From: Victivallales bacterium
GTDB taxonomy: Bacteria; Verrucomicrobiota; Lentisphaeria; Oligosphaerales; Oligosphaeraceae
DNA length: 7,970 nt
Assembly: GCA_017543165.1 (NCBI GenBank)
Contig: JAFYGL010000660.1
Span: forward strand, 1-7,970
Direction of reading: 5' to 3'
The notes under the pieces are model-generated. The model did no database searches and was not told where the DNA came from. It worked only from the letters and a program-made list of their open reading frames with translations. Positions 1-7,970 of this stretch are shown here, piece after piece; the stretch's first letter is position 1, and each line of letters starts with the position of its first letter. The position numbers were made by a program, and so were the translations under genes.

Positions 1-747
1 CTGCTCGTCCTCCTTGGGTATCATGTCGCCAAGTGCGCCGCTGACGAACATCGCGTCGCAGTCAGCCTCGGAATTGATGTAGTCCCTGAAATAGCCAGGA
101 AAGTCCGCTGAGATGCGCAGTGCGCCCCTGCCGATGGAATGGCTTGCCAGTGGATGCGCGGCATAGTTGCCGACTATGAACAAAGGAAACCTGGTGCCTG
201 GCTCCAGGAAGAAAAGAAGTCCCAGCTCCTGGTCCTTGAATCCATCCGCCAGGCGGCGCAGTTCCGCGCGGTGTGGCAGGAAGCAGTCGTAGTTGTCCGC
301 CGTCACAACGCGCCTGTTTAGGTTTTCGTCCAGTTTCATCGAGTAGAAGTAAGCTTCCACCTCTTTCATTTTGCCAGGCATTTTCCTGCATTCCTCGATG
401 ATGGCGGCCTCCAGCCAGTCCAGGTACTTGTATTCCACATAGTGGTCGTACTTTGGCTCGGTGTTGGTCAGCGGCCCGCCGTGGGTATGGGTGCAGGTCA
501 GCATTATGTGATACTGGGGCATTTCCAGGATTTCACAGCAGAGGCGGCGTATTTTCTGTATGAAGATCTCGTCCAGGCAAAGCAAATCGAAACTGATGAG
601 CAGCACCTTGCGCTCGCCGTCGTCCGCCAGAAGCCCAGTCATATATAAGTCGTTCAGCTTTGAAATGGAGGTGTCATCCATTCTGTAGCCTGCAACGTGC
701 CCCCCCAGTTCTGGGGATATGATTTTGTTGAACCAGGAAATCTTCAT
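1..747 (-). CDS. Neutral/alkaline ceramidase-like protein, N-terminal part (3' end outside window)
   Basis: The leftward frame is open for 249 codons with no stop, so the gene is cut by the left edge. The product resembles the N-terminal domain of neutral/alkaline non-lysosomal ceramidases (PF04734), a zinc amidase fold. Visible hallmarks are an opening strand ending in HVAGY (17-21), the metal-site motif TCTHTHGGP (84-92, H87 and H89), a further histidine in NYAAHPL (194-200, H198), DFPGYF (215-220) and SGALGDMIP (236-244), which matches the family's GAxGDxxP element. No signal peptide is seen, so it may be cytoplasmic, unlike secreted true ceramidases. In Planctomycetes and Lentisphaerota such proteins are common and mostly uncharacterised, so ceramide as substrate is not implied. 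ATG at 747 was chosen because the family's first strand begins there; only CTCT-type sequence, no clear Shine-Dalgarno, precedes it. An in-frame TTG at 798 is the only other upstream start before a TGA at 822-820. Family confident, substrate unknown. Confidence 0.85.
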   Translation of the reverse strand, partial: MKISWFNKIISPELGGHVAGYRMDDTSISKLNDLYMTGLLADDGERKVLLISFDLLCLDEIFIQKIRRLCCEILEMPQYHIMLTCTHTHGGPLTNTEPKYDHYVEYKYLDWLEAAIIEECRKMPGKMKEVEAYFYSMKLDENLNRRVVTADNYDCFLPHRAELRRLADGFKDQELGLLFFLEPGTRFPLFIVGNYAAHPLASHSIGRGALRISADFPGYFRDYINSEADCDAMFVSGALGDMIPKEDEQ

Positions 748-865
748 TGTAGTAGAGGGTGTTTTGTATTTTGTTTCAGGAATACGAAGATGAGTCAACT
801 CCCTGAAAACAAGGAGCTTTCATCGCCGCTCGCTGTCGTCACATTACCTCTATACCTTGATTGCA
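748..865 (-). other. Gap between pseudopilin and ceramidase-like genes
   Basis: These 118 bp hold no open frame of note. On the transcribed strand there is a short stem AGCTCC / GGGAGTT with a 9-nt loop (about 803-824), not followed by a T-run, and a TTGACT hexamer just after it without a good -10 box at the right distance. I cannot tell whether the ceramidase-like gene has its own promoter or is read from upstream. Confidence 0.4.
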
Positions 866-1648
866 TCATTGGATATACCATGGATACCCGCCTGCGTATT
901 CAGGTTTGTTGACCGTGCCATTCACCCAGGGATACGCCGCCGTGTAAAGCCTCTGTGATTCGCAGTGCATGTCAAACAGGAGTGAGTTGAACGTATTTCC
1001 ATGTCTTGCAGGCGGCAATCCTGCACCGTCTCCAGGGTGGATGTAGTAGCTCTTGCGATTAACGTCGGCCATGCAAAGCACAGAGGAAGGCGAGCTCATC
1101 GAATCCATCTTGAAGAGTGTCTTGTCATTGTTGAAGCTCAACTTGGTGCTGGCCTGCAAGGCATCAGTAAGGCCATAGTTGATGTTGGCATTATGAAAAT
1201 ATGTGCCAGAAATGACACTTTCCGCCTCCGCTGGGCAGCGTTGCACCCCTGTGGGCCACACGCCGTCAGCCTTCCCTTCGGAGGATTCCCAGACATATCC
1301 GCTAAGGTAGCCACAGCAAACCTTCGAATCAAAGTTGGCCTTCTGCGCCATGATGAGAGACCACTGAACCGCGCCATTGGTTCCGCCGTAGTTTCCTGAT
1401 GGGCGCGCGAACATCCAGTCGAAATCCATGTGGTATTGTGCCAATGCCAGACCAATCTGCTTCTGGTTGGATGTACAGGAGATGCTGCGGGCCTTGGCAC
1501 GGGCCTTGCTCAGCGCTGGCAGCAACATTGCCGCGAGTATCGCGATAATCGCTATTACAACCAGCAGCTCAATGAGCGTGAAATTAGCTTTTTTCCTGCC
1601 ATGCGAACAAATTGACAAATCTGCTGTGCGCTTTTCTTTAAAGAACAT
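866..1648 (-). CDS. Type II secretion-like pseudopilin (prepilin N-terminus, H-X9-D motif)
   Basis: The 260-residue product is a prepilin-type protein exported through the membrane and processed by a prepilin peptidase. Residues 1-22 are a basic leader, followed by [20 protein letters not shown] (23-42) with the invariant Glu at mature position 5 (E27) and the hydrophobic assembly helix, then a KAR-rich stretch and CTSNQKQIG (58-66), as in DUF1559/pseudopilin relatives. Near the C-terminus, H216 and D226 form an H-X9-D motif, here followed by Met instead of the usual Gly. The residue before the cleavage site is Asn22 rather than Gly. Six cysteines outside the leader could form disulfides. Start: GGAG lies 7 nt before ATG 1648 and fits well. 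The gene ends in TGA. It lies 75 bp after the hydrolase gene. In this phylum such genes occur in many copies beside glycan-active genes; their role (fibre, glycan capture or secretion) is unknown. Confidence 0.92.
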
Positions 1649-1655
1649 AATTTGT

Positions 1656-1659
1656 CTCC
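1656..1659 (-). promoter_or_regulatory. Ribosome binding site of pseudopilin gene
   Basis: GGAG read leftward sits 7 nt before the ATG at 1648. It shares the heptamer GGAGACA with the site before the GH99-like gene, which supports both start choices. Confidence 0.75.
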
Positions 1660-1692
1660 ATTTTTTCTTGATTGAATTTTTCCTATTGAATT

Positions 1693-1724
1693 AAAAAATC
1701 ATCGTTTTGAACAGGTATGCTGTT
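1693..1724 (-). terminator. Possible weak terminator after hydrolase part
   Basis: On the leftward transcript AACAG / CTGTT form a 5-bp stem with a 5-nt loop (1724-1710), overlapping the TAA stop of the hydrolase gene, and a run of six T follows 11 nt later (1698-1693). The stem is short and the T-run is distant, so termination would be partial at best. The rest of the 75-bp gap up to 1649 is AT-rich leader sequence in which I see no convincing promoter. Confidence 0.25.
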
Positions 1725-3061
1725 TACCGCTTCGCTCTCTTCTTTCTGATGATTGCAGCAGTCCAGTCCTCCTGAAGACGCAGTTCAGTATAGTTTTTGC
1801 CGTCAATGCTCCTCTGGACTGCCCTGAAGTCCGCCTTTTCATGTCCAGTTTCATCATAGACATGAACCTCGTGCTCCGAGGCATCGTTCCATCCGAACAA
1901 GCCGCTTTCCTTGGTGATTATACGCTCCTCCCCAATCACATATCCCTTGTGCAGCTCCATTGGCGTGAAGGGGAACAAGCAATCCGTCAACGTGTGGTAA
2001 TCCTCTGTATTGTCAGGATAGCCGTTGACATCGTATGGAGGCGCCAGCGGCCAGTCGGCGAAAATGCATCCATAATCAAGTCCATCAACCATTGCTTTGT
2101 AGTATTCCTGCTGCGTCTTGCGGTGGTTGGTATAGTCCCCGCTCTGGATGGGCGACCATACGTTGGTTCGTGCGCAATTCGTTATCTGGGCCGTCTCCAC
2201 TAGCACAGGAAGTTTGAATGCCTGCAATTCCCCGTATGTACGCCCATTCACAAAGACTATCTTGTTCTCCCGTTTTAAAAACTCAATCATTTTGACATGC
2301 CACGGCATCTGCAACAAAACAACTGATGACTTCCGCCTCTCCAATTGGTGGGTTTTCAGAGAAATGTCCCCTGAACATCCATCCCATGGCTCCCCATAGT
2401 GGTATTTCACTCCAGAGGCCGCCATCTCATCCCAGAAAAATCCGTCTATGTCCATGCTGAGATAATGCCGTATCTTTGCTTCAATCATTCTTGAGTAGGA
2501 ATTGCCCTCCACGCAAAGGAACAATTTGTTGTCGGGAATTCCATAAAAGGCAAGGGAGCCGTTTTTGTTCAAAACCCGCTCGTTGGGGAACAACTGGTCC
2601 GCATCCTTCGCCTTTTCTATCTGTGTGTGAAGATACAGGACAAGTTTTCTGCCAGGAAACAAATGCCTGAGCCTCTTGAGGGTATCCACCATATAAGGCA
2701 ATTTACCTGTGGAGGAGTATGTGCTCCCATGAGGAAGCACCAGTCCCGTGTCCACAAGAATGATATTGGCGTTTCGAGTGCTTACTCTGGCTTTCAATTT
2801 TTCATCGCTCCACCAAAGATGGTTATTGACTGACATGAACGTGCCCATGGGGCCATCTACGCAAAAGTTTGCTCCGACGAGCCGCCTCAACGGATTTATG
2901 AAATCCCAGTAATCACCAGATTCCACAGGTATCACAGCGAATGCCTGCTCCGCGCTAGCCCTGGGAGCAAGGACAAAGCTCTGGTCGCAGAGCCCTATGG
3001 CATCATTTCCTGAGATGTAATTCTCCGCATGTACCTGGAATACCTTGTTCAAAGGAAACAT
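1724..3061 (-). CDS. TIM-barrel-like glycoside hydrolase part, C-terminal half of an interrupted gene
   Basis: This 445-residue frame starts at an ATG two codons after the TGA that ends the CBM9-like frame, in the same phase. Residues 1-50 continue a beta-sandwich domain begun upstream. From about 62 the sequence looks like a (beta/alpha)8 barrel: strands near GANFCVDGP (63-71), ANIILVDTG (98-106), KLVLYLHTQ (139-147), DIDGFFWDEM (204-213), KIVFVNG (267-273), LPVLVETAQ (284-292) and YGCIFADWP (330-338). D211/E212 and E289 are candidate catalytic acids by position at strand ends; this is inference. A small C-terminal beta domain (about 370-436) follows. I cannot name a CAZy family. There is no signal peptide, so if made alone it would stay in the cytoplasm, and only a distant AAGGA (13 nt) precedes the ATG. 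It is most likely the C-terminal part of a roughly 998-residue secreted protein, expressed only by readthrough or reinitiation. Ends in TAA. Confidence 0.75.
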   Translation of the reverse strand: MFPLNKVFQVHAENYISGNDAIGLCDQSFVLAPRASAEQAFAVIPVESGDYWDFINPLRRLVGANFCVDGPMGTFMSVNNHLWWSDEKLKARVSTRNANIILVDTGLVLPHGSTYSSTGKLPYMVDTLKRLRHLFPGRKLVLYLHTQIEKAKDADQLFPNERVLNKNGSLAFYGIPDNKLFLCVEGNSYSRMIEAKIRHYLSMDIDGFFWDEMAASGVKYHYGEPWDGCSGDISLKTHQLERRKSSVVLLQMPWHVKMIEFLKRENKIVFVNGRTYGELQAFKLPVLVETAQITNCARTNVWSPIQSGDYTNHRKTQQEYYKAMVDGLDYGCIFADWPLAPPYDVNGYPDNTEDYHTLTDCLFPFTPMELHKGYVIGEERIITKESGLFGWNDASEHEVHVYDETGHEKADFRAVQRSIDGKNYTELRLQEDWTAAIIRKKRAKR

Positions 3062-3067
3062 TCCAAT

Positions 3068-3070
3068 TCA
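3068..3070 (-). other. In-frame TGA interrupting CBM9/hydrolase gene
   Basis: The codon order on the coding strand is GAT GGC TGA ATT GGA ATG, all in one phase. Replacing TGA with TGG gives KDGWIGMFPLNKVFQVH, which reads as a natural continuous beta-strand stretch. The stop therefore cuts a domain in the middle, and it differs from Trp by one base (T instead of C at plus-strand 3068). Confidence 0.85.
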
Positions 3071-4720
3071 GCCATCCTTTGATGCACCAAAACTGCTTGC
3101 ATTGAAACTCTGGGATTTTTCATTGCTGGGTATTGCCTCAAGCCCATTGATGTAAAATTTCTTGTCCGCCCCAGATATGGTGATTTCATGCCGCTGCATC
3201 AAGGGCAGGGGCTCGTCAGTAAGATTTGTAAAAACATCCTTTACGATGACAGCCTCAGCTTTTTGCTCCAGAATCCGCCGATGTGCAAAATACTGGTTTG
3301 AGCCACTTGCCCATTTGCCATCTGGGGTGGAAAACATGCTCCTGACTTCCCATGTATTTGCACCAAGTTTCAAACGCAGCGGATTTTCGGGCGACATCAC
3401 TGTGTAATCTATTTTATGCCTCTCTTTCGGGCACACCAAAGGCAAGGTTCCAGTTGGAGCCTCCCTGCGCTTGCGCACCACGCGAGGCATCTTCAAGGAT
3501 ATTTGCACATCCTTCAAAGAGAGAGCGCTGGTTTTGTGATTGTTGGATATCTCTATTTCATTGTCGCCTTCCTTTGTTGCAAATGAAATATCGAACTCAA
3601 AATCATGTAGATTGACATGCCGCTTGAACCATTGAAGCCAGGTGCCTTTCTGATTTCCGCTGTAGAAATCATCAGGTCCAGTATATGGGACGACAAAACC
3701 CAGCTTGTCATAAAAACAAATCGGCACTCCCTTTTTGTTCTCAACAGTCAATGGACGGTTGTAAAGCTTCTCACCTGCCACTTCTTTACCATTCACGTAG
3801 ATTTTCAATGCGCTGGCATAGCCATTTAACATTGAGGAATTCAGACGAGCCTTCATGGACAGGACATGCACGGTTCCAGCTGGCGCCGAAGCAAGTTTCA
3901 CAACCTGCTTTTGCGAACTTTCCTTGCCGATTGTCACAGTATCATACAGTTTCACTGACTTGATGTCATTATAGGGATTATGTCTTATTGCACCATTGGC
4001 GTCAGTCATAATGAAACGTCTCATGCCCTCCCGCATGCGGAATTTCCAATGTATGGAGCCTGTTGTCATAACGCACTTCTGAACAGAATCATCGGCGGCA
4101 TCCGTATCGGAAAGCCAGATTTCAATATTCATCGGCGTTCCTTCCAACAGCGCTTCGGGCAACCCAAATGCCTTCCAAGGCAGGTAAACTTCCATGCACC
4201 ACCCGCTTTCTGTCCGCGCCGAAGCATATCTGGTTTCTTTCAGTAGCGTCTTTTCAGGGAAAAAGCAATAAAGTTCTGGCTTGACAGTTTCAAAATCGCC
4301 AGGGCTTATGCCAATATGGAACTGCCCCTTGCCGAATGTCTTGTTCCCTGGCAGCAAAGGCGTGGTGTCAAGAAACAATTCAATATGGTCCCCATAGAAC
4401 AATTTTGAGCCACCATGCTTTTGCGAAACACTGTCATCCATTACATCAGCCGCAAGATAAAGCCCATTGGGCTTCCAGCAAAGAATCACCTTGCCGCTAA
4501 AATCAGAGGCTCCCCTCCATTTCGCGTCCGTATTGTCCTCTGGCAGAAGATGCTGCCTCCCACTCAATTCATAAACAACTGGAACATCATGCCAGTCATC
4601 AAGCACGCCGTCTATTTGAATCGGTGGATCCTGCTTGAATGGAATAGGCGCAAATATGTCCTCCGCAAAACACGCGAAAAACATTGCCAAGCATGCGATA
4701 ATGAGTGATTTTCCAGACAT
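3068..4720 (-). CDS. Secreted CBM9-like protein, N-terminal half of an interrupted gene
   Basis: The 550-residue frame starts with a Sec-type signal peptide (1-19, cleavage likely after ACFA). Residues 33-237 form a CBM9-like carbohydrate-binding domain (PF06452 type): IDGVLDDW (36-43), GLYLAADVMDD (86-96), YGDHIELFLDT (109-119) and GWCMEVYLPWKAFGL (173-187) are its usual landmarks. Residues 255-430 look like a second beta-sandwich, with IYVNGKEVAG and EIEISNN typical of jelly-roll domains. From about 445 a third beta domain begins and is broken off at GASKDG by an in-frame TGA; the following frame continues it. The protein likely binds a glycan outside the cytoplasm and presents it to the barrel now encoded downstream. 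Start: AAGGGG lies 8 nt before ATG 4720 and 25 bp separate it from the GH99-like gene, so the two form an operon. GC content appears lower than in the flanking transporter gene. Domain call good, substrate unknown. Confidence 0.85.
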   Translation of the reverse strand: MSGKSLIIACLAMFFACFAEDIFAPIPFKQDPPIQIDGVLDDWHDVPVVYELSGRQHLLPEDNTDAKWRGASDFSGKVILCWKPNGLYLAADVMDDSVSQKHGGSKLFYGDHIELFLDTTPLLPGNKTFGKGQFHIGISPGDFETVKPELYCFFPEKTLLKETRYASARTESGWCMEVYLPWKAFGLPEALLEGTPMNIEIWLSDTDAADDSVQKCVMTTGSIHWKFRMREGMRRFIMTDANGAIRHNPYNDIKSVKLYDTVTIGKESSQKQVVKLASAPAGTVHVLSMKARLNSSMLNGYASALKIYVNGKEVAGEKLYNRPLTVENKKGVPICFYDKLGFVVPYTGPDDFYSGNQKGTWLQWFKRHVNLHDFEFDISFATKEGDNEIEISNNHKTSALSLKDVQISLKMPRVVRKRREAPTGTLPLVCPKERHKIDYTVMSPENPLRLKLGANTWEVRSMFSTPDGKWASGSNQYFAHRRILEQKAEAVIVKDVFTNLTDEPLPLMQRHEITISGADKKFYINGLEAIPSNEKSQSFNASSFGASKDG

Positions 4721-4728
4721 AAAACTCG

Positions 4729-4734
4729 CCCCTT
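4729..4734 (-). promoter_or_regulatory. Ribosome binding site of CBM9-like gene
   Basis: AAGGGG read leftward lies 8 nt before the ATG at 4720, within the 25-bp gap after the GH99-like stop codon. It supports both the start choice and co-transcription. Confidence 0.7.
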
Positions 4735-4745
4735 ATATTTGTTCT

Positions 4746-5879
4746 TCATTTCTTTTCCGTACCAAAGACTGACCTGACTGCCTCAAGATAGGCGTATCCA
4801 TATTCCTGTTCTGGTTCAAGCATGCTGCCCTCCGTCCATTCATTCCAGCTGTTGATGTTCATGGTCGGAAGTTCAAACTCCTTCATCATTTTGGAGCAGC
4901 GCAGCAGCGCGGCACGAAAGCGCTCAGGAGTGTTTCCTGTGATTACAGGCGTATATGGATAGCCGATGTCATGGCTCCAGCAGTCAGTCAAAAGCGTACG
5001 CGGCGAGGAATCCCAGCCAACTGTCACATTGGGAAAATACGGAACTGCATACTGCCTGCGTATGTCAAGCCAGCTCTCAAAATAGCCGTCACAGACCTCC
5101 TGGTAATCCACAACTGCCCCGCCACCTAGCCTGACGTTGTGAAACCAAACATAGCTTGTAACGGAATCAAAGCCAAGTTCATCCACCAATTCAGGCATGT
5201 TCAGCACCTTTCCCTCGCATGGAAGAAGCGGGCAGCCATAGACTATGCAGTTCAAATGGGGATTTCCCGCCCCCGCCCGCAACGAGGCCTCGCGAAAATC
5301 GTCCAGTGCCTTGCGTGTTCCGCTCACGCCGCCGAAACTCTTCAGCAATTCGGAAAGCTGGTAAATGGAGAAATAGGGGGCGCCGTCAATCTTGAAATAC
5401 GCAGGGTGCAGAAAGTATTTCTGAATGATGCGCTGCGTCATGGCCTCAAATGTCTCCCGCGTCACACAACCAGGATAAAGCGTGGTGCGCTGTCGGCGCC
5501 CGCATGGATGTATGTCCTGCCAGTCGTGGTTTGCCCACATCAATGCGAACTTCATACGCGAAATATTCTTCGCCTTAAGGAAGCCGTCGTTGAGGCAGTT
5601 TTCCAGAAACGTACCATCATTGTAATAATAGTAGTCGAATATGAAATAGTCGATGCCATGCTCGGCGGCGGCCTCGATCTTTCGCGCCATGACAGCTGGC
5701 TCCGCCTCGTTTTCATAGCCCCAGACGGGTATCTTCGGCTGCTTGTGCCCCTGGAAACGGGGCTGCGCATGCCTCACAAGCTCCCATTCGCTCCAGGTGC
5801 TTCCATGATACGCCGAGTTGCGTTCATCGCCAATATGGAAATTGGGGAAATAATAACATCCCACCGTATGATTCTTCAT
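4746..5879 (-). CDS. GH99-like / WbsX-type glycan-active protein
   Basis: The 377-residue product matches the WbsX/GH99-like family (PF14307 type), a (beta/alpha)8-barrel group found with glycosyltransferases and glycan-degrading genes. Landmarks in order are GCYYFPNFH (7-15), W29-SEW (29-32), KQPKIPVWGY (46-55), HGIDYFIFDYYYYNDG (74-89), FALMWANHDW (111-120), GAPYFSIY (166-173), and the terminal signature NSWNEWTEGSMLEPE (343-357), whose acidic residues E347 and E350 are likely active-site candidates. The protein ends about 20 residues after that signature, as usual. I chose ATG 5879 because GGAG stands 6 nt upstream and homology begins at once. The frame stays open up to an ATG at 6026, but those extra 49 codons overlap the divergent regulator gene and show no family similarity. 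No signal peptide, so the enzyme should act in the cytoplasm. First gene of the leftward operon. Hydrolase or transferase activity cannot be decided from sequence. Confidence 0.88.
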   Translation of the reverse strand: MKNHTVGCYYFPNFHIGDERNSAYHGSTWSEWELVRHAQPRFQGHKQPKIPVWGYENEAEPAVMARKIEAAAEHGIDYFIFDYYYYNDGTFLENCLNDGFLKAKNISRMKFALMWANHDWQDIHPCGRRQRTTLYPGCVTRETFEAMTQRIIQKYFLHPAYFKIDGAPYFSIYQLSELLKSFGGVSGTRKALDDFREASLRAGAGNPHLNCIVYGCPLLPCEGKVLNMPELVDELGFDSVTSYVWFHNVRLGGGAVVDYQEVCDGYFESWLDIRRQYAVPYFPNVTVGWDSSPRTLLTDCWSHDIGYPYTPVITGNTPERFRAALLRCSKMMKEFELPTMNINSWNEWTEGSMLEPEQEYGYAYLEAVRSVFGTEKK

Positions 5880-5885
5880 CTCTGT

Positions 5886-5889
5886 CTCC
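5886..5889 (-). promoter_or_regulatory. Ribosome binding site that fixes the GH99-like start
   Basis: GGAG read leftward lies 6 nt before the ATG at 5879. It favours this start over the longer open frame that begins at 6026. Confidence 0.75.
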
Positions 5890-5923
5890 GCAAAAGCAGT
5901 TTGATTTTCTAATTTTGTGTTAT

Positions 5924-5951
5924 ATTGTACGAAAAATTTCCTATTTAACAA
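5924..5951 (-). promoter_or_regulatory. Predicted sigma-70-like promoter of leftward operon
   Basis: Read leftward, TTGTTA (5951-5946) and TACAAT (5929-5924) are separated by 16 bp. The -10 matches consensus at five of six positions and the -35 at four. Transcription would begin near 5917, giving a leader of about 38 nt. Sigma-70 boxes in this phylum are assumed, not proven. One arm of the TTGTACGAAA repeat overlaps the -10. Confidence 0.45.
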
Positions 5952-5987
5952 GGCAAAATAATCCAAAAAAATGGTCATTTCGTACAA
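5925..5987. promoter_or_regulatory. Inverted repeat pair, candidate operator of the AraC-type regulator
   Basis: TTGTACGAAA at 5925-5934 and its exact reverse complement TTTCGTACAA at 5978-5987 lie 53 bp apart centre to centre, close to five helical turns. The left copy overlaps the predicted -10 of the leftward operon; the right copy starts 7 bp inside the regulator gene. This geometry fits a protein that bridges two sites and also controls its own gene. That the adjacent regulator binds here is inference. Confidence 0.45.
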
Positions 5988-6786
5988 AAATAAAAACTGG
6001 GTAAGCCCATATCTGGATTTGGACATTGTGGCTGGGCGCAGCTTCGCTCAGTCAGGAAGCATGACATGGAAAGGGCTGCATCCAGACGCATGGAATCTCA
6101 TCAGGGTCACATCGGGGCGCTGCAGTGTGAAAAACGGAAATGAAGTCATAGACCTGATACCAGGTGGATTCTTTCTGCTTCAGCCTGCCAGCGAAAGAAT
6201 CTTCACGCGAAATGGCCAATGGGATGCATATTGGGCAATGTTTTCTCTCTACCTGCCACTTCACTGGCCAGAAATCAAACCAGGCATCTACAGGCTAGCT
6301 CCGCCAGAAAAGGAGAGCGCCAGAATCCTGCGCAGCCTGCTGGAAACCGTCAGCCTAGTACGAGAATGCGAAGGAGAATGGCATTTGCTGGCGAACAACA
6401 TCCTGGAAAACATCATATTGCGGGGAAACCGCATCAGCAAGACGCAAGGCAACAATACCGACCGTCGCATGTTCCTCGCAGCCAAACTGCTCAAAGACCC
6501 AGACAACAAAATGCCAATGGACAGAATCGCCGCGCAATGCGGAATGTCACATGCTTCGTTTTTCGCAGAATTCAGACGCGTATTCAAGCAGTCCCCACGG
6601 CAGTTCAGGGAACAGGCGCGTCTCCGCATGGCAAAAGTTCTGCTGGAGACAAAACATCTTTCCATAGAGGAAATTGCTGTCAGCGTCAACATGATAGACA
6701 GCAGCTACTTCACAAAACGCTTCCAGAAGCATTTCGGCATGACGCCCACCCAATACAGGAAAAAACTAAGCATAATGGACCGCTGA
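5971..6786 (+). CDS. AraC-family transcriptional regulator
   Basis: The 271-residue protein has a cupin-like sensing half and an AraC-type DNA-binding half. Residues 15-105 contain short beta-strands such as WNLIRVTSG (41-49), DLIPGGFFLLQP (61-72) and YWAMFSL (87-93), the usual AraC_binding layout, which probably senses a sugar. Residues 165-266 hold two helix-turn-helix units: MDRIAAQCGMSHASFFAEF (183-201) and IEEIAVSVNMIDSSYFTKRF (232-251), followed by the family signature FGMTPTQYRK (255-264). ATG 5971 is the first start after an in-frame TAA at 5959-5961; only an AAGG 17 nt upstream hints at ribosome binding, and an A-rich stretch directly precedes it. The next ATG (6061) would remove conserved sensing-domain strands. 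It is divergent from the glycan-active operon with a 91-bp gap, so it most likely regulates that operon and itself. Inducer unknown. Ends in TGA. Confidence 0.93.
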   Translation: MVISYKNKNWVSPYLDLDIVAGRSFAQSGSMTWKGLHPDAWNLIRVTSGRCSVKNGNEVIDLIPGGFFLLQPASERIFTRNGQWDAYWAMFSLYLPLHWPEIKPGIYRLAPPEKESARILRSLLETVSLVRECEGEWHLLANNILENIILRGNRISKTQGNNTDRRMFLAAKLLKDPDNKMPMDRIAAQCGMSHASFFAEFRRVFKQSPRQFREQARLRMAKVLLETKHLSIEEIAVSVNMIDSSYFTKRFQKHFGMTPTQYRKKLSIMDR

Positions 6787-6952
6787 TTAGGAGTTGTCCA
6801 ATATGGGAGAACAAACACAATGCAAAAATCAATAGAATTTGTGCAATCCGATTCACATTTTCCAGGGAGACGGCATACCGAATATCCCAATGCACATTAA
6901 ATTATGCCATGTCCCTTCAAGGGATACGGAATCAAACTGCACCAATAAACTT
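6787..6952 (+). other. Gap between regulator and transporter genes with two dyads
   Basis: No gene is seen in these 166 bp. One stem pairs TGCAAAAAT (6821-6829) with ATTTGTGCA (6837-6845), eight of nine pairs and a 7-nt loop, without a T-run after it. A second is the 13-bp palindrome TCCCTT-C-AAGGGA (6912-6924), which starts 41 bp before the transporter ATG and could be an operator. No convincing -35/-10 pair was found. Confidence 0.4.
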
Positions 6953-7825
6953 ATGTCATCTACAAATAAAAGCCTCGGCTATCTTTGCGCCATCATCGCC
7001 GCCACCACATACGGATTCAATCCACTGTTCGGGCTTCCCCTGTATGCGCGGGGAATGAGCACGCCCTCTGTACTGTTCTACCGCTTCTTCTTCGCTTCAT
7101 TGATGCTGACTGGCGTAAAACTGTACAAGAAAAGCAGTTTCCGCCTGGAGGCAAGGCAAATCCTGCCGCTTATTGCGGGAGGCGTATTGCTGGCATTGAG
7201 CGCCACCTTCCTCTTCCTCAGCTTCCGCGTAATGGACGCGGGCATCGCGGCCACCATACTCTTTGTATATCCCGTCATGGTGGCGCTTATCATGGCAATC
7301 GGCTTCCATGAACGCATTTCGTTTTTCACATGGGGATGCATGATTGTCGCCCTTGCAGGCATTGCGTTGCTCAACGCCAGCGGCGGCAAGGTCAGCCTGC
7401 TGGGGCTCGTGTATGTGCTGCTTTCCGCATTGACCTACGCCATATACATGGTGCTTGTCAAGGAATCCAGCCTGAAGAGGCTGCCCTCCGATACATTGAC
7501 GCTATACGCCATGTTGGCAGGCCTGCCCGTCTTTCTCGTCCCGCTCAAGGGCGGCATGCTCCTGCAAATGCCCAGTGACGGCCTTGCCTGGGTCTGCGTA
7601 TTCGGCCTGGCGCTGTTCCCCGCACTGCTCTCATTCCTGCTGATGGCCGTGGCAATAAAGCGCATCGGCGCCACCACCACCGCCATCATCGGCGCACTTG
7701 AGCCTTGCACCGCACTGGTCATAGGCGTCTGTGTCTTCAACGAGCATCTGACACTGCGCTCACTCGTCGGCATAGCCATGATACTCGTCGCCGTAAGCCT
7801 GGTGGTGCTAAGCAGGAAAAAGTGA
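6953..7825 (+). CDS. EamA/DMT-family inner-membrane transporter
   Basis: The 290-residue protein is built of two EamA repeats with about ten membrane helices, the standard size and layout of drug/metabolite-type permeases (metabolite or amino-acid exporters, sugar carriers). Repeat 1 spans about 8-141: helices near LGYLCAIIAATTYGFNPLF, VLFYRFFFASLMLTG, LPLIAGGVLLALSATFLFLS, AATILFVYPVMVALIMAIGF followed by HER (119-121), and WGCMIVALAGIALLNA. Repeat 2 spans about 148-287 and carries the typical GALEPCTALVIGVCVFNEHLT (247-267, given here as the family's GALEP...E-LT signature). I prefer ATG 6953; the frame is open to an ATG at 6839, but those 38 codons are not membrane-like and lie in AT-rich spacer. 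No Shine-Dalgarno precedes 6953. It lies 166 bp after the regulator on the same strand; a shared transcript is possible. Substrate cannot be predicted. GC-rich relative to the leftward hydrolase genes. Ends in TGA. Confidence 0.9.
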   Translation: MSSTNKSLGYLCAIIAATTYGFNPLFGLPLYARGMSTPSVLFYRFFFASLMLTGVKLYKKSSFRLEARQILPLIAGGVLLALSATFLFLSFRVMDAGIAATILFVYPVMVALIMAIGFHERISFFTWGCMIVALAGIALLNASGGKVSLLGLVYVLLSALTYAIYMVLVKESSLKRLPSDTLTLYAMLAGLPVFLVPLKGGMLLQMPSDGLAWVCVFGLALFPALLSFLLMAVAIKRIGATTTAIIGALEPCTALVIGVCVFNEHLTLRSLVGIAMILVAVSLVVLSRKK

Positions 7826-7837
7826 TTTGACGGGAAC

Positions 7838-7872
7838 AGGCATTCAACTATGCTTCTTCTTTGTATATTTTT
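7838..7872 (+). terminator. Possible weak terminator of transporter gene
   Basis: AGGCAT (7838-7843) and ATGCTT (7850-7855) pair with one G-T wobble around a 6-nt loop, 13 bp after the stop codon, and a T-rich stretch with four separate T-runs follows to 7872. The stem is short, so this is a weak call. Confidence 0.3.
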
Positions 7873-7877
7873 GCATC

Positions 7878-7935
7878 ATGCTCAATTCAACTGAAGAGCA
7901 TAGAACCAGGAAATACCCAATAGTTTCTATGCTCT
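7878..7935. repeat. Overlapping alternative hairpins downstream of transporter
   Basis: AGAGCATAGAA (7895-7905) and TTCTATGCTCT (7925-7935) form a perfect 11-bp stem with a 19-nt loop. The left arm can also pair through GAGCAT (7896-7901) with ATGCTC at 7878-7883, extended inward by TTC/GAA after a 2-nt bulge. The two stems share an arm and exclude each other. No T-run follows on either strand, so this is not a standard terminator. The leftward strand here also has an open frame from the right edge to a TGA at 7846-7844 (41 codons), which could be the tail of a gene outside the window, though chance explains it as well. Confidence 0.5.
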
Positions 7936-7970
7936 CCTCAATCAATTCCTTTATTAATCCCACATGAGAA

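Follow-up and report, generated by a model that had tools for sequence, protein, structure and literature searches.

The locus raises the question of why a long open reading frame of a Victivallales bacterium is divided by one in-frame TGA: whether the two parts are the remains of one interrupted gene, two working proteins, or the product of a wrong base. The stretch of DNA analysed here, hereafter the window, comprises 7,970 nucleotides (contig JAFYGL010000660.1, positions 1 to 7,970).

Layout and predicted domains of the interrupted gene

The gene frame runs on the minus strand from an ATG at 4720 to a TAA at 1724, and its sole interruption is the TGA at 3070-3068, codon 551. It is followed by ATT (3067-3065), GGA (3064-3062), and ATG (3061-3059), and these coordinates bear out the spacing given in the first-pass annotation, which had also placed the two open reading frames (ORFs) in the same phase. 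Both ORFs, of 550 and 445 residues, are in the same frame, and the joined protein has 998 residues and no further stop when the TGA is read as a residue. The split frame is beyond chance, as the match of most full-length relatives extends past the junction and L001, the closest relative found at the DNA level, encodes the protein without a stop there.

The upstream ORF (3068..4720, minus strand) comprises a leader, a CBM9 module, a beta-domain in its middle part, and most of the strands of the beta-sandwich located ahead of the barrel, according to Pfam and the structural model. The downstream ORF (1724..3061, minus strand), delimited by the ORF list and the model, comprises the last strands of the beta-sandwich, a (beta/alpha) barrel, and a C-terminal beta-domain. 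By inspection, a leader is present at the start of the upstream half, and no hydrophobic leader is found at the start of the downstream half (MFPLNKVFQ...), as the annotation had stated. It had also described the downstream half as free of any other break, and none was seen in the ORF. The ATG six bases past the stop (3059..3061, minus strand), codon 554, corresponds to a methionine codon in the intact L001 when the two sequences are compared. At the other end of the gene, a TGA terminates the L001 frame three codons ahead of the TAA of the window.

The upstream half matched Pfam CBM9_1 (PF06452) with an E-value of 4.8e-10 and 40.1 bits against a cut-off of 23.4, and the CBM9 fold was also found; the module is predicted from its sequence to bind sugar. 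The downstream half had no Pfam or NCBIfam match at E <= 0.1, despite dozens of full-length relatives of the barrel half. A profile search of the protein against the PDB returned only two CBM9 sequences at E < 0.001. The residues D764, E765, W779, D780, and E842 are invariant in a 55-row alignment, and the barrel that holds them lies downstream of the stop. From the alignment, D764 and D780 are putative counterparts of the catalytic Asp pair of GH36/GH31-like glycosidases; in the VIA list, the GH36/GH31 and alpha-amylase barrel groups are not separated. The protein is predicted to be secreted, sugar-binding, and probably sugar-cleaving. The stop falls within a beta-strand (residues 550-556) of a domain that was modelled with confidence (mean pLDDT 90.6), which leaves both halves incomplete as modules. 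In the literature, titles and the openings of abstracts gave no result particular to this gene.

The neighbouring genes show the same order in L001, namely AraC, WbsX, the orthologue of the interrupted gene, and a pilin-like gene. The upstream neighbour (4746..6026, minus strand) carries a WbsX domain (Pfam name: glycosyltransferase WbsX; 3.3e-47), and its resemblance to GH99 is below threshold. The downstream neighbour (866..1648, minus strand) is a pilin-like N-methylation/DUF1559 protein by Pfam. A divergent AraC-type regulator (5971..6786, plus strand) ends with TGA in the window and with TAA at the same residue in L001. None of these three genes is broken in comparison with L001. The remaining ORF (1-798, minus strand) runs off the edge of the window; it had no Pfam match, and we take it to resemble neutral ceramidase-like proteins.

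Full-length relatives and the residue at the stop

The joined protein was searched against a public protein collection, in which the 7994 candidates sharing most words with the query, with lengths 0.55-1.75x that of the query, were scored. The search resulted in 74 matches at E <= 0.001, one of which was the upstream half of the window itself (P0005). Fifty-six of the 74 are 980-1020 residues long, and in 63 the match spans 97% or more of the query; the named members come from Victivallales, Verrucomicrobia, Armatimonadota, and Planctomycetes. In the alignment with full-length homologues that the annotation had proposed as a check, most of them matched the joined sequence across the junction. 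The nearest DNA relative found, L001, is a goat-rumen Victivallales contig, 86% identical, in which the frame is open through the site. A second intact protein (P0002) is identical to that of L001 at 952 of 995 positions.

Among the genomes of the family of L001, 21 of 29 gave some match, mostly partial or weak. In a sample of 387 genomes of the phylum, with at most four candidates scored per genome, and with the downstream half of the relative P0101 as the query, 25 genomes gave 49 matches (E <= 1e-30). For 47 of these 49, the open frame has 600 residues or more; the other two are a frameshifted homologue (L064) and a match whose open frame has 307 residues. Of the internal stops flagged in relatives by the genome searches, those in L002 (position 996) and L051 (position 995) proved by tblastn to be end-of-gene stops, and the sole stop in L066 and L067 (from genomes G401/G402) is likewise at position 996. 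By tblastn, L011, L029-L033, L035, L039, and L045 have no stop inside the match. Two short matches (G403:C691 and G399:C90) are explained by contig ends, and the phage collection and viral contigs gave no match.

Two other damaged copies were observed in the family. A second, adjacent copy in L034 (2775-3863; G008:C25:9074-10171), near a contig end, has a real internal stop at query residue 481 and is possibly another decaying paralogue. The distant homologue L064 (about 2318-2281, minus strand; G321:C28) carries a 13-base tandem duplication that shifts its frame at the same Gly-x-Gly motif, an independent lesion, or an error of assembly, a few residues at most from the homologous site.

The annotation had proposed that tryptophan would fit at the stop. 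The aligned column holds Gly in 72 and Ala in one of the 73 relatives, as does the column of the next-but-one residue. Protein sets built from whole-gene predictions under-represent internal stops, a bias that genomic places do not have; the latter comprise 33 rows, or 30 distinct homologous places after the removal of three overlapping duplicates (L040, L044, and L052). Here the site encodes Gly in 20 places, Ser in eight, Val in one, and Ala in one, with no stop and no Trp. The Ser and Val residues may partly be alignment slips, because the places other than L001 are only 24-40% identical. As the column is Gly or Ala and never Trp, the proposal fails.

Age of the lesion and constraint on both halves

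We compared selection on both sides of the stop. Against L001, omega (Nei-Gojobori) was 0.112 upstream of the stop and 0.058 downstream; the second value is rough, since dS approaches saturation midway along the gene. With P0003 as the outgroup, the amino-acid changes in the lineages of the window and L001 were 21:17 upstream and 26:20 downstream (Fisher p = 1.0). The ratios were 10:8 and 9:6 when counted only where P0003 and P0004 agree (Fisher p = 1.0), and 22:18 and 26:21 when P0002 replaced L001 as the sister. At columns at least 90% conserved, the window departs at four of 68 upstream and nine of 79 downstream; 12 of these 13 departures, including eight of the nine downstream, are common to P0002. 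Relaxed constraint downstream of the stop, a mark of an old pseudogene, was thus not found by omega or by lineage changes; these measures are averages over all of the time that separates the window from L001, and a very recent event would be hard to detect with them. Since neither half shows decay, the stop is either very recent or not real. The annotation had concluded from the absence of other breaks that the event was very recent or that readthrough was functional. Its first part holds if the stop is real, and the second is not supported, as discussed below.

A by-product of some value is the uneven synonymous divergence from L001, which climbs steeply along the gene. Identity at fourfold sites is 18/21, 21/22, and 21/24 within the first 180 codons and 6/22 in codons 541-600, and dS rises from 0.24 in codons 1-90 to 1.81 in codons 541-630. 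The low divergence at the 5' end (window 4720-4181) may reflect recombination with the L001 lineage near that end.

Explanations of the interruption and comparison with known systems

The annotation had listed four options, namely nonsense mutation, readthrough, reinitiation, and base error. The first and the last remain, readthrough is not supported, and reinitiation is possible in principle. Since the gene is unbroken in relatives, a recent knock-out of the ordinary kind, or a base error, is likelier than a special two-protein route. We favour, with moderate confidence, a very recent nonsense mutation at the conserved glycine of a formerly intact gene. Two marks of a nonsense pseudogene were found, an intact orthologue (L001) and the removal of a conserved part (the barrel). 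A single wrong base in the assembly consensus, with the gene of the organism intact, ranks second and appears somewhat unlikely. It would account for one isolated lesion with neither half decayed, and the window's protein forms a cluster (P0005) of one member on one contig, so nothing shows the allele in more than one assembly; the unbroken AraC, WbsX, and pilin-like genes argue against it. The weighting of these two readings rests on rough general rates: consensus substitutions in assemblies are rare per base, and broken genes are common in bacterial genomes.

Production of two proteins, by termination and reinitiation at ATG554 or at the TTG of codon 557, that would assemble into a split enzyme is most improbable, even though an ATG follows six nucleotides past the TGA and an SD-like AAAGGA lies about 13 nt upstream. 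The collection also holds a 442-residue protein of the window (P0076) whose start is the TTG of codon 557 (window 3052, minus strand) and not ATG554, which is the choice of the gene caller. ATG554 and a purine-rich AAGGAGG just upstream are, however, already present in the intact L001. ATG554 is therefore a long-standing methionine codon rather than a restart that evolved, and both elements are incidental, neither having arisen with the stop. Reinitiation at ATG554 is possible in principle, but its modelled product would be without a leader and most of the beta-domain, and the break lies inside that domain.

The search with the C-terminal half resulted in 39 matches, comprising 25 that run across the junction, the downstream half of the window itself, and 13 confined to the sequence beyond it. 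Two of the 13, P0098 and P0101, are predictions of a C-terminal half that begin exactly at residue 554, and at first these looked like a natural two-gene split, which the annotation had named as the observation that would count against one interrupted gene. Once traced, neither of the two supports such a split. The entire sequence of P0098 recurs with 100% identity inside a 1030-residue open frame of G078; P0101 has its two closest relatives (61%, from a search of 197 genomes of the class) in frames of 1058 and 1128 residues. P0098 illustrates how part of an unbroken gene may be mistaken for a half protein. The search with the N-terminal half gave five matches among the 7994 candidates scored, namely its own, two across the junction (P0111 and P0112), and two to the CBM9 part only; no relative among them ends at the junction.

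Functional readthrough would yield some full-length 998-residue protein, with a possibly regulated balance between a secreted CBM9-only form and the full one. The constraint on both halves and their shared frame are compatible with this reading, yet we consider it very unlikely. UGA readthrough usually inserts Trp, whereas the site is Gly or Ala in 73 of 73 proteins and Trp in none of the 30 genomic places. Moreover, a stop is absent there from every relative examined (0/73 proteins, 0/30 places), the TGA of the window cuts a strand inside a domain and not a linker, and the window has no Rfam match at the gathering threshold. Nothing specific speaks for functional readthrough or for a split enzyme, and both are unlikely. 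It is likewise highly improbable that the TGA is a recently fixed functional switch, giving a secreted CBM9-only protein together with a little full-length enzyme by readthrough or an enzyme complemented by a reinitiated C-terminal half. If functional, the stop would give a secreted carbohydrate-active protein a new, regulated form, but the evidence speaks against this.

The probability is negligible that this genome reads UGA as a sense codon (for Gly or Trp) or as selenocysteine. UGA encodes Gly in some candidate phyla, and the relatives carry Gly at the site; however, the pilin-like and WbsX genes end with TGA in both the window and L001, and the AraC gene ends with TGA where L001 has TAA. 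As these gene ends are at homologous positions, TGA is an ordinary stop, and an alternative code was rejected. Selenocysteine was rejected as well, given the absence of Cys from the aligned column and of an Rfam match at the gathering threshold from the window. The window also holds no tRNA. The tRNA-Sec model scored 43.9 bits in the genome of L001 (G001), below the cut-off of 47, and above it in two of the four relatives searched (G007 and G402). This search decides nothing, because all 14 controls gave some match, five of them over the cut-off.

Under the favoured reading of a recent nonsense mutation, one change at the conserved glycine would interrupt the secreted CBM9 and (beta/alpha)-barrel gene (4720-1724, minus strand). 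Because TGA is an ordinary stop here, translation would end at codon 551. The product would be a secreted fragment of 550 residues with the sugar-binding module, an incomplete beta-sandwich, and no barrel; the downstream part would not be expected in useful amounts or to be exported. Decay of the downstream half would not yet have begun, the lesion being so recent. We regard it as a probable loss-of-function allele carried by one strain within a gut population of Victivallales-like bacteria. In the protein collection, one lesion has given rise to two apparent proteins (P0005 and P0076).

Among known systems, the CBM9 modules of 7nwn (Caldicellulosiruptor) and 1i82 (a Thermotoga xylanase) resemble that of the window, but theirs are joined to a different C-terminal module. 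The GH36/GH31-type alpha-glycosidases are listed among the closest systems, although the downstream half of the window's protein has no matching Pfam or NCBIfam profile; an example is the galactosaminidase of Flavonifractor plautii (9ayu), reportedly of GH36. The full-length CBM9 and (beta/alpha)-barrel "sugar-binding protein" family (P0002-P0075 minus P0005) is mostly of the same full length and differs by the absence of a stop at codon 551 in the 73 aligned proteins and 30 genomic places. With the barrel half unmatched by Pfam in the window's protein, this family is the more useful by-product of the analysis. Finally, the gene shares with bacterial nonsense pseudogenes a single stop, an intact orthologue, and a conserved domain that is cut, and it differs from them in showing no secondary decay yet, as a very recent lesion, or one that is not real, would.
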